Assembly: GCA_007127695.1 (NCBI GenBank)
Contig: SKYW01000263.1
Span: 1-5,097, forward strand
Direction of reading: 5' to 3'
Length of the DNA: 5,097 nucleotides
Source of the DNA: Balneolales bacterium
GTDB lineage: Bacteria > Bacteroidota > Rhodothermia > Balneolales > Natronogracilivirgulaceae
Both the position numbers and the translations under genes were made by a program. The notes below the pieces were generated by a model. It was given only the letters and a program-made list of their open reading frames with translations, made no database searches and was not told the DNA's origin. Below, piece after piece: positions 1,520-5,097 of this stretch; the first letter of the stretch is position 1; each line of letters opens with the position of its first letter.

Positions 1520-2764
1520 TCAATCCATTTTGTACCGCAGCACGCCGTCGATGAAGACGTGTGTTGGACGTGTGGTGTATTCGAACGGGTCTCCGTTGAA
1601 GATGACCAGGTCGGCGTCCTTGCCGGAGCGCAGCGATCCGAGCCGCTCATCCATGCCAAACAGCGCCGCCGGTCCGGCAGTAAGTGCGTGCAGCGCCGCA
1701 GTCCTGTCCAGACCGTATCCCACGGCTACGGCAGCTTCGAACAGCACCACGCGGGTTTTGGGCACGTAACTTTCGTATCCGCTCTGGAAAACAAAAGGAA
1801 TACCTGCCTCGTGCAATTTTTGAGCCGTATCGAACGCCGCATTTTCCGTCTCGCCGCGGAGCCGCACCATGGGGGGATGGAGGATGACGGTCGCCCCGGC
1901 TTCCCTGATCTCATCCAGAAGCAGATAGGCCTCCGAAGCGCCGTCCAGCAGCATCGGGAATCCGAACTCGCGTTGCAGCCGCAGGGCGGTCATGATGTCA
2001 TGGGTCTTGTGGGCGGTAATAAGGGCGAACAGGCGGCCTTCCAGCATATCGGCCAGGGCGTCCAGGCGCAGGTCGCGGTCGGGACGATGGTCGGCATCCT
2101 CGTGACGCCGTTTTTCGGCGTAATCGGCGGCCCGGATCAGCTCCTGGCGCAGCATGGCAATGCCTTTGGACCGGGTGCCGGGCGTGTCGAACTGGCCGCG
2201 GACACCGGGTCCCAGTGTGATGGCCAGGGCCGTGGTCGAATCCAGCAGGGCCTCATCCACCGTTCCGCCGGCGGTTTTGACGATCATGGTCTGTCCGCTC
2301 ACGATGGCCCCGGGCGCATGTCCGGTGTGCACGGTTGTAACCCCGTTCTGGCGAAGGAAACCGACCAGTTCTTCACGGGCGTTGTACGCGTCAATGGCAC
2401 GCAGGTCAGGCTGCAGGGCGTGCGAACGCTCCAGCTGGTCCTGATCGTGTTCCTGGTTGAAATACCCCGCCAGGCCGACCACCGACCGGGCGTCAAAAAG
2501 TCCGGGCGTGACAACAACCCCCTCATGACGTTCGTAGCCGTCGGGTATGGCGACGTCCGAAGCCGGACCCACACGCTCGATCTTGCCATCCCGGATGAGC
2601 ACCACGCCGTCCACAACAGGCTCTCCTTCCATGGTGTAGACGGTATCGGCGATGACGGCAATCTGGGAGGATGCGGTTGGCGGCAGGAACAGCAGGATGG
2701 CGATGAGCGCCAGGATGGCGGCCGGATGTGTCAGGGATCGAAAGGGACGGATGACAGTAAGCAT
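1520..2764 (-). CDS. secreted amidohydrolase-like protein with degenerate metal site (probable pseudoenzyme)
   Basis: This is a 414-residue protein if it starts at the ATG at 2764-2762. A TTG at 2773-2771 would add three residues and is less likely. Residues 1-34 form a signal peptide (basic start with R6 and R9, hydrophobic 15-28, then PPTASSQ), so the protein is exported. The rest follows the COG1228 imidazolonepropionase-like fold from end to end: an N-terminal beta segment (VVLIRDGKIERVG), VVTPGLFDA at 84-92, the VSGQT motif (155-159), and the C-terminal GSLRSGKDADLVIFNGDP signature (376-393). The metal ligands are missing. HxH is replaced by R93-S-V95, the strand-5 His by T250, the strand-6 His by G275 and the strand-8 Asp by G329 (alignment by eye to the upstream gene). 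It follows that gene after an 18-base gap in the same frame, so the two are almost certainly co-transcribed. Either it is non-catalytic (partner or binding subunit) or it uses a different chemistry. Substrate unknown. Confidence 0.88.
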   Translation of the reverse strand: MLTVIRPFRSLTHPAAILALIAILLFLPPTASSQIAVIADTVYTMEGEPVVDGVVLIRDGKIERVGPASDVAIPDGYERHEGVVVTPGLFDARSVVGLAGYFNQEHDQDQLERSHALQPDLRAIDAYNAREELVGFLRQNGVTTVHTGHAPGAIVSGQTMIVKTAGGTVDEALLDSTTALAITLGPGVRGQFDTPGTRSKGIAMLRQELIRAADYAEKRRHEDADHRPDRDLRLDALADMLEGRLFALITAHKTHDIMTALRLQREFGFPMLLDGASEAYLLLDEIREAGATVILHPPMVRLRGETENAAFDTAQKLHEAGIPFVFQSGYESYVPKTRVVLFEAAVAVGYGLDRTAALHALTAGPAALFGMDERLGSLRSGKDADLVIFNGDPFEYTTRPTHVFIDGVLRYKMD

Positions 2765-2782
2765 CTTGTTCAATGAGTTTTG

Positions 2783-4117
2783 TTAGTGATCGTGATGGTG
2801 TCCGTGACCGCTGCTGCGGATCACCTGGTATCCCCCGGTGGCGTACTTCCGGTCTTCGGGATCCTCGATATCCCATACTTTCCGGCCTTCGATCCAGGTC
2901 TGCTCCACCCGGGTGTAGACGCTGAACGGGTCGCCGGACAGGATGATGAAATCGGCGTCCTTGCCGGGTTCCAGCGAGCCGACCCGGTCCTCGATATCCA
3001 TCATGCGGGCATTGGCTATGGTGACCGACTCAAGCGCTTTCTGCCGGCTGAGGCCCTCTCTGATGCCAAAAGCGGGCGAACGGAGCAAAAGGCGGGAATC
3101 GGTGATGGGATCGTCGGTGTGGAAACCGAAATCAGCTCCGGCCTTCTCCAGAATGGGAGCCGCCTTGGGCAGCAGGTTGATCGCCTCAAGCTTGCCGCCC
3201 GGCGAATCGATGTAGATGATGGATGCGGGATAGCCGGAAGCGGCGATTTCGTCGGCCACTTTCCAGGCGTCTGTGACGTGGTGCAGCACCATCCGGTACC
3301 CGAATTCATCGGCCAGGCGGATAGCCGTCAGCACATCGTCGTGGCGGTGGGTGTGGTTGTGGACGATGCGATTGCCTTCCAGCACCTCCACCAGAGTCTC
3401 CAGGGCAAGGTCGCGGGACGGCATGCGTTCCGGATCGCCCTGCGCCGCCTCGATGCGGGCCTGGTATTCCTGGGCGCGGATGAACATGGCGCGGACCATG
3501 GCCGCCGATTTGGCGCGCGTACCGGGAAATGGCGGCTGCCGCAACGGATTGGTACCATTGGCCATTTTGAGTCCGCCGTAAATGCCGCGTTCCTCATCCA
3601 CATAGATCAGCATCTCCTCAACCGTGTTGGCGGGACGCAGTTTCAGGTAGACCGTCTGGCCGCTGACGAGGTGTCCGGATCCGGGCATCACGTTCACGGC
3701 AGTCAGTCCGCCGGCCAGCGCGCGCCGGAACGAGTCGCTTCGCGGATAGATGGTGTCCATGATCCGCACGTCCGGATGCAGTGCGGCGGAACGGTCCCCT
3801 CCGTCACCCTCGCCGATGTGCGAGTGCGAATCCACCAGTCCCGGCATGACCACTTTGCCGGTTGCGTCGATTACTTCGGCGTCAGACGGGATGGATACCG
3901 AAGCGGCGTCACCCACGGCGATGATGCGTCCGTCGCGGACCAGCAGGGTGCCGTTTTCGTACGTTTCGCCGGTCACGGTGATGATCTCCGCGCCGGTGAC
4001 GGCTACGGGATGCTCCTGGGCGAATAGTTGGCCGGGAGTTCCGGGAAACAGGTCTGTACCGTTCAGGAGCAGGAAAAGCAGCGGTGACAGAAGCAGGATT
4101 CGAAAGGGTGTCTTCAT
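2783..4117 (-). CDS. secreted metal-dependent amidohydrolase (COG1228, imidazolonepropionase-like)
   Basis: This 444-residue protein starts at the ATG at 4117-4115. An in-frame TAA at 4138-4136 with no start codon between makes this the only possible start. Residues 1-34 are a signal peptide (MKTPFR, then a Leu-rich core, processing near LFAQ), which points to the periplasm or outside. The metal-site motifs look complete: PGLVDSHSH with H98 and H100 after strand 1, HNHTHRHDD (253-261) on strand 5, LHH (278-280) on strand 6, and HTDDP (333-337) with the strand-8 Asp. LKMANGTNP (183-191) may carry the bridging lysine K184 (inference). The C-terminal VGSLEPGKDADFIILSGDP (379-397) is the standard signature of the family. 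The last residues form a His-rich tail (GHGHHHDH). By family knowledge it hydrolyses an amide or peptide-type bond using one or two metal ions, but sequence alone does not give the substrate. It is the first gene of a two-gene unit with a degenerate paralogue behind it. No clear Shine-Dalgarno sequence precedes it. Confidence 0.92.
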   Translation of the reverse strand: MKTPFRILLLSPLLFLLLNGTDLFPGTPGQLFAQEHPVAVTGAEIITVTGETYENGTLLVRDGRIIAVGDAASVSIPSDAEVIDATGKVVMPGLVDSHSHIGEGDGGDRSAALHPDVRIMDTIYPRSDSFRRALAGGLTAVNVMPGSGHLVSGQTVYLKLRPANTVEEMLIYVDEERGIYGGLKMANGTNPLRQPPFPGTRAKSAAMVRAMFIRAQEYQARIEAAQGDPERMPSRDLALETLVEVLEGNRIVHNHTHRHDDVLTAIRLADEFGYRMVLHHVTDAWKVADEIAASGYPASIIYIDSPGGKLEAINLLPKAAPILEKAGADFGFHTDDPITDSRLLLRSPAFGIREGLSRQKALESVTIANARMMDIEDRVGSLEPGKDADFIILSGDPFSVYTRVEQTWIEGRKVWDIEDPEDRKYATGGYQVIRSSGHGHHHDH

Positions 4118-4690: not shown

Positions 4691-5097
4691 ATGGGCTCAC
4701 GATTACTTGCCATACTCGTCGCGATTATCGCGCTTTTTGCATTGCTTTTTTTCCTCCTCACACGGGGTATTGACACCGGAACGCACGGTGTCACTTCGCC
4801 GGGTTACATCAACTCCATCACTTTTCAGCTCGACGGTGACGGTGTCCCGTACTATTCGGTCAAGCATCGCGGCAAGACCGTCATCGCACCGTCCCGCCTG
4901 GGTTTCGAACTGGCCGGAGTGCCCGATCTGCGCGACAATTTTGTCGTGGCATCCATCGACTTCACGGAATTGGACGAAACCTGGGAGCAGGTCTGGGGCG
5001 AAAAGCAGTTCATACGAAACAACTACAACGAGTTGCGGGTGAACCTGACCGAGGAACGCGACGACGGACGCGAACTCACCGTCATCTTCCGCGCCTA
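4691..5097 (+). CDS. glycoside hydrolase family 97 (SusB-like) protein, N-terminal part
   Basis: The frame runs from the ATG at 4691 to the window edge without a stop (135 complete codons), so the gene is 3'-truncated. An AGGGA at 4681-4685, five bases upstream, is a fair ribosome site. An in-frame TGA at 4661-4663 with no start codon in between rules out an earlier start. Residues ~4-24 are a long hydrophobic helix (LLAILVAIIALFALLFFLL) with no clear signal-peptidase site, so it looks like a signal anchor. From ~35 the sequence fits the GH97 N-terminal beta-sandwich: SPGYINSITFQLDGDGVPYY, the LGFEL stretch, DETWEQVWGEKQFIRNNYNEL and the ELTVIFRAY end. By family knowledge GH97 enzymes are calcium-dependent exo-acting alpha-glucosidases, or retaining alpha-galactosidases in another subgroup. 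The catalytic barrel lies beyond the window, so specificity cannot be decided. Its promoter region holds the repeat array just upstream. Confidence 0.88.
   Translation, partial: MGSRLLAILVAIIALFALLFFLLTRGIDTGTHGVTSPGYINSITFQLDGDGVPYYSVKHRGKTVIAPSRLGFELAGVPDLRDNFVVASIDFTELDETWEQVWGEKQFIRNNYNELRVNLTEERDDGRELTVIFRA

Follow-up and report, generated by a model that had tools for sequence, protein, structure and literature searches.

What is the role of an amidohydrolase-like protein that has lost its metal site and is encoded directly behind an intact relative? This question is raised by two genes in a 5,097-nt stretch of DNA (hereafter the window), which lies within a 2.03-Mb draft genome. Both are open reading frames on the minus strand. 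Gene A (2783..4117) encodes a predicted exported amidohydrolase of 444 amino acids with an intact metal site, and gene B (1520..2764) a predicted exported amidohydrolase-fold protein of 414 amino acids, counted from its ATG, in which the metal site is lost. An alternative TTG start for B is possible at 2773. Export is predicted from the hydrophobic N-terminus that is visible by eye in both proteins. B lies downstream of A, and the A stop and the B ATG are separated by 18 nt (2765..2782, minus strand), in which no terminator-like site is listed. On the plus strand the window also carries a TPR-containing sensor histidine kinase (2-1474), whose frame is still open at the 5' side where the window begins, and the first part of a protein of glycosyl hydrolase family 97 (4691-5095, Pfam GH97_N), which is truncated by the window end.

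The first-pass annotation had claimed that A and B align lengthwise and that the metal ligands of A are exchanged for other residues in B. Both claims held, as the two proteins align over 387 positions with 34% identity (E 3e-54, an E value for a single comparison). In Pfam, A and B each score above the curated cut-offs of amidohydrolase families (for A, Amidohydro_3 with 77.2 bits against a gathering cut-off of 29.7), and the families matched above cut-off are the broad amidohydrolase ones only. By fold and homology B is thus a member of the superfamily. Among the 25 NCBIfam models listed per protein, out of 39 and 78 matched, none of the amidohydrolase models (prolidase-like, imidazolonepropionase and others) reached its cut-off; the best scores were 47.2 of the 500 needed for B and 80.4 of the 391 needed for A.

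Protein A has all six site residues, H98, H100, K184, H255, H280 and D335 (HHKHHD), which we take from knowledge of the superfamily to be the ligands of a two-metal set (HxH, K, H, H, D); conservation among relatives agrees with this assignment. The codons of the HSH motif in A (H98-S99-H100, 3818..3826, minus strand) align with those of R93-S94-V95 in B (2480..2488, minus strand), and the residues that follow in B are A181, T250 and G275. At the position of D335, B has G329 in the ungapped register; with an insertion of two residues, E331 falls there. The HxH, K, H, H, D set of a two-metal enzyme is thus absent from B, including the exchange of K184 for A181, which had been overlooked. In the best 120 of about 8000 scored relatives of A, H98, H100, K184, H280 and D335 were found in 120/120 and H255 in 119/120; in the best 120 of about 8000 scored relatives of B, V or T stands in place of H100, the K is missing and H280 is replaced by G. 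This contrast between the sites of A and B exceeds chance.

To describe the losses in B we used the best 80 B loci from species genomes, which are a sample. They come from nine phyla: Balneolota (38), Bacteroidota (15), Ignavibacteriota (7), Rhodothermota (6), Acidobacteriota (4), Chlorobiota (4), Calditrichota (3), Gemmatimonadota (2) and Myxococcota (1). This breadth bears out the idea of a kept ligand-poor lineage. The residues named earlier for the B of the window are right, but the replacements are not all universal among its relatives. The second histidine, the lysine and H280 are gone in 80/80 loci, with V (75) or T (5) for H100, K184 retained nowhere, and G (77) or S (3) for H280; H255 is lost in 78 and kept in two. 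The first histidine is however retained in 38 loci and replaced by R in 42. In a gapped alignment the D335 position is glutamate in all 80 proteins. Among the A partners in 79 loci, 76 read HHKHHD; in the other three the frame used does not contain the first of these residues, owing to contig ends in two (L046, L082) and to a stop in one (L017). In the latter, the stop falls just after HSH in the A frame (just upstream of 6931) and the adjoining B is open; it is either a genuine loss or a sequencing error of the draft genome.

The pairing of the two genes is close to exceptionless. A lies upstream of B on the same strand in 79/80 B loci, and the remaining locus (L010) ends at a contig edge there. 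In 78 of the 80, A adjoins B directly, and in 20/79 pairs the A stop and the B start, called mechanically as the longest frame, overlap by one base. A single sampled pair (L085:7184-7967) has 784 nt, with a 226-aa frame on either strand, between A and B. When 117 genomes of the window's class were searched (thresholds of at least 473 bits for B and at least 395 bits for A), 75 had B, the same 75 had A and 40 had neither; of the other two, one carries a chimeric gene (G060) and in one A is truncated by a contig end (G038). These two were again the exceptions when 296 genomes sampled from the window's phylum were searched: both genes were found in 66 and neither in 228 at E 1e-95, a threshold at which genomes without a match may hold more distant kin. 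As 50 of the 66 are also in the class sample, the union comprises 91 B-bearing genomes. In 90 of these, A precedes B on the same contig and strand with less than 600 nt between the matched ends, and in the 91st (G043) the pair is divided between contigs. For the phylum to which the Acidobacteriota locus L077 belongs, B was present in 19/149 genomes and A in the same 19, all adjacent according to coordinates read by eye. The conserved pairing with an HxH-type neighbor, which the first-pass annotation had put forward, is thereby supported, and in these samples the possibility that B usually occurs without A is ruled out.

We also looked for a conserved further operon gene, and this candidate was rejected, since no other gene family recurred next to A and B in more than 11 of the 80 loci. 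The commonest neighbors resemble, by eye, metK, ruvB and uvrA.

The chimeric gene mentioned above encodes 408 amino acids (L098:6052-7275), and is the only dyad-type A or B gene in its one-contig genome. Its first half is A-like with H, H, K and H kept, and its second half is B-like with G and E-E-Y-V-P-K-T-R, so that it looks like the result of a deletion between A and B at a common stretch. Together with the stop in the A frame of L017, the chimera indicates that the pair can be given up.

Natural A-B fusions were searched for with a query in which A and B were joined end to end. Among the best 120 of 566 matches, 78 proteins were longer than 780 amino acids, and all 78 were in the order A-B. 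Where the organism was named, the hosts belonged to Acidobacteriota or to a Planctomycetota group. The first halves read HHKHHD in 78/78, and the second halves had lost H100, K, H255 and H280 in 78/78, kept H98 in 56 and had E in the D335 column in every case. Judged by their sequences, these fusions are natural linkages of exactly the two window proteins. An intact gene and its ligand-poor paralogue are thus kept together in loci, in genomes and as fusions.

Since the pair is kept together or fused in several phyla, the two proteins are likely to form one two-part enzyme. Our favored reading, which we regard as probable with real room for doubt, is that A and B are the two kinds of chain in a predicted exported hetero-oligomeric amidohydrolase, A being the catalytic one and B a noncatalytic partner subunit. 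Its observed basis is the lost ligands, purifying selection acting on B (described below), the order A then B and the A-B fusions. We infer that the two chains associate, that A works with two metal ions and that B lacks an activity of its own. The earlier view of a predicted secreted enzyme with a conserved pseudoenzyme partner is in this way supported by the kept lineage, the pairing and the fusions.

Intact and ligand-poor sisters are not limited to the A-B dyad. Contig C102 (L097) of the window's own genome has a frame of 951 amino acids in which a ligand-poor domain is followed by one reading HHKHHD; the contig stops before any third gene position. We surveyed 32 such loci in the class, made up of C102, 11 and 20 further stretches, and 26 of them are triads in the order pseudo-intact-pseudo, with the first two genes fused in 14 and separate in 12. 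The rest are three other dyads, the cut C102, the chimera and the cut A. All 30 intact domains in these loci, the chimera and the cut A aside, read HHKHHD. The three other dyads (L100, L101 and L102) represent a second intact-pseudo dyad; the three genomes that carry it all belong to one family (f12) and have the A-B dyad as well.

Intact and ligand-poor sisters also stand together outside the class, in 20 loci from the window's phylum and 20 from the phylum of L084 (Gemmatimonadales) that were picked from the profile matches given below and judged on the first five site positions, as the D335 column is gapped for most of the added rows. At these positions all 40 intact domains read H, H, K, H and H, and each has at least one ligand-poor sister, which is next downstream in 37, with gaps up to about 500 nt, and fused upstream in the other three (L132, L135 and L141). 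One frame of 930 amino acids (L160:4292-7081) joins an intact and a downstream ligand-poor domain. A profile of the triads' intact domain matches 157/296 phylum genomes at E 1e-90 and, at the looser E 1e-60, 68/81 genomes of the phylum of L084; for these counts the neighbors were inspected in the fetched loci only.

One or two of the six residues survive in some of the ligand-poor members, which indicates that the losses differ between branches. The first-position pseudo domains of L108 and L114 have kept HxH and lost the other site residues, L133, L136 and other downstream sisters retain a His in the 255 column, and a few other ligand-poor domains carry a single His or Lys at a site column.

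The main rival to the partner-subunit reading, and one we consider possible though unlikely, is that B is an enzyme that catalyzes a reaction of its own, without metal or with a different metal site, at a step before or after that of A in one pathway. What B has kept speaks for this. Conservation of at least 95% is seen at 47 positions across 158 B-type sequences (the 80 loci and the 78 fusion halves), including a polar set consisting of N103, D107, Q108, D109, R122, D125, R301, E331, Y333, K336, R338 and E343, much of it on the active-site face; V334 and P335 are equally conserved. Four of these residues (N103, D107, Q108 and D109) lie in the loop after strand 1 (2438..2458, minus strand). 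Others form the motif E331-S-Y-V-P-K-T-R338 after strand 8 (1751..1774, minus strand; consensus E-x-Y-V-P-K-x-R), which occupies the place of the metal-binding aspartate of A. The active sites of amidohydrolases sit at the C-terminal ends of the barrel strands, and many of the conserved positions in B are in loops at these ends, with the strands taken from a model of B whose low-confidence stretches include 96-113 and 332-337, the loops with the conserved residues. At this E331/D335 stretch the third members of the triads have other residues than B, as if the site had been retuned. Furthermore, the 80 separate B proteins hardly vary at H146, H149 and H296, and D107, D109 and E331 are kept in both separate proteins and fusion halves. 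In separate B proteins a new metal site could in principle be built from these six residues, and an acidic site from D107, D109 and E331 could exist in B. Fusion also fits this reading, as enzymes of one pathway are often fused.

On the other hand, the three histidines are no longer among the positions conserved in at least 95% when the fusion halves are added, so no histidine-based replacement site is general, and we rejected this candidate as a feature of all B-type proteins. The near-exceptionless one-to-one pairing with no further pathway gene conserved nearby, and triads in which two ligand-poor sisters surround one intact member, also argue against chemistry of its own in B. The conservation of the pocket side was compared with the rest of the barrel by circular shifts, using loop windows that were set by hand from the model strands. 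For A, 0/265 shifts do as well as the pocket side, whereas for B 25/263 do, and its pocket side is thus not clearly more conserved.

Alternatively, B could be an accessory factor such as a chaperone, a metal loader or a regulator, needed for making or tuning A and not a lasting subunit. The near 1:1 pairing of the genes and the predicted export of both proteins would fit such a helper, as would the His-rich C-terminal tail of A (2786..2812, minus strand), with GHGHHHDH at its very end. At least three His are found within the final 16 residues in 46/79 A relatives, and a role of this tail in gathering metal is our guess. Single-chain A-B fusions, however, are easier to reconcile with a partner that stays bound 1:1 than with a helper that acts transiently, and we regard this explanation as improbable, more so than an independent chemistry of B.

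Selection and ancestry were analyzed for both genes. In nine chosen pairs, of which seven per gene allowed dS to be estimated, dN/dS (NG86) ranged from 0.036 to 0.151 for B and from 0.055 to 0.173 for A; B is under purifying selection, as is expected from the earlier assertion that the locus does not reflect decay. In a tree of 71 domains from chosen loci, a single branch separates the 30 intact from the 41 ligand-poor domains with a support of 98 (bootstrap) and 96 (SH-aLRT), and the A and B copies of the sampled phyla fall into separate groups. Three rows were dropped, namely two distant outgroups, which had been badly placed in an earlier quick tree, and a long-branched first-position pseudo domain (L123). 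As the tree is without outgroups, its root and the status of the ligand-poor side as a single clade are not proven. The simplest reading of the sequences is one old duplication followed by loss of the site, with the pair presumably co-inherited since. That B is a duplicate in decay, or an annotation artifact within a common superfamily, is therefore highly improbable and was rejected: loss of metal ligands is the first thing decay would allow and the chimera demonstrates that the pair can break down, but the separate old branch of B, with A and B copies grouping apart, the low dN/dS, the conserved motif and the fusions all argue against it.

How could a catalytically silent sister contribute? 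In homo-oligomeric amidohydrolases copies of one chain fill all positions of the oligomer. In the partner-subunit reading B would be made next to A and would take the positions otherwise filled by a second A. The conserved loops of B, on the same face of the barrel as the active site of A, may then help to shape the substrate pocket of A or to hold substrate there, and A would hydrolyze a small amide or peptide bond. Several observations weigh against the reading of B as a subunit. Fusion and linkage would fit two enzymes of one pathway as well, the conserved charged set on the active-site face of B exceeds the needs of a plain scaffold, 40/117 class genomes live without the pair, and the pair can be given up, as seen in the chimera and in the stop of L017.

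More tentatively, and with less confidence than we place in the A-B subunit model itself, the dyads, triads and fusions may together represent an old and widespread class of exported enzymes, with one catalytic amidohydrolase barrel and one or two ligand-poor sisters. In dyads and fusions the site of the sister would have been rebuilt into a D-Q-D / E-x-Y-V-P-K-x-R pocket, a second, metal-free substrate site that feeds the catalytic barrel. Where we examined them closely, entries named "amidohydrolase family protein" proved to be kept in sets, an intact member with one or two ligand-poor sisters. Should these sisters make up a single enzyme, assays of such proteins singly would fail or mislead. 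The separate genes, fusions on either side and loci with two sisters would then be a natural series for the path from a dead copy to an indispensable subunit.

Among solved structures, only 3ooq matches A and B along the whole domain at the thresholds used. This Thermotoga maritima protein, presumably the product of TM0814, has an intact site; the ten chains of the entry all share one sequence, and no ligand-poor sister is among them. In the titles and abstract openings that made up the literature searched, we found neither the A-B pairing nor an amidohydrolase class of dyads, triads and fusions; a mention of 3OOQ was likewise not found there, with subscription titles mostly outside the search.

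Inactive paralogues as subunits are a known kind. In the mitochondrial processing peptidase (alpha/beta) and in paired M16B peptidases, two homologous chains act together, one of them catalytic and the other not. These pairs differ from A-B in fold and chemistry. The CRMPs (dihydropyrimidinase-related proteins) have the amidohydrolase fold and have lost the enzymatic metal sites, but unlike B they are eukaryotic and cytosolic, and are not known to be genetically paired with an intact sister. We know of no pair of an enzyme and its inactive paralogue within the amidohydrolase superfamily. The nearest proven parallel in this fold known to us is the aspartate transcarbamoylase (ATCase) of Pseudomonas aeruginosa. 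An inactive dihydroorotase-like chain (pDHO) is reported to be required there for the activity of its partner, and the two form a dodecamer with six of each chain (PMC7053772). The pDHO chain resembles the role proposed for B in being an inactive chain of amidohydrolase fold that its partner requires; the difference is that the partner of pDHO is an unrelated transcarbamoylase, whereas the partner of B would be its own intact sister.
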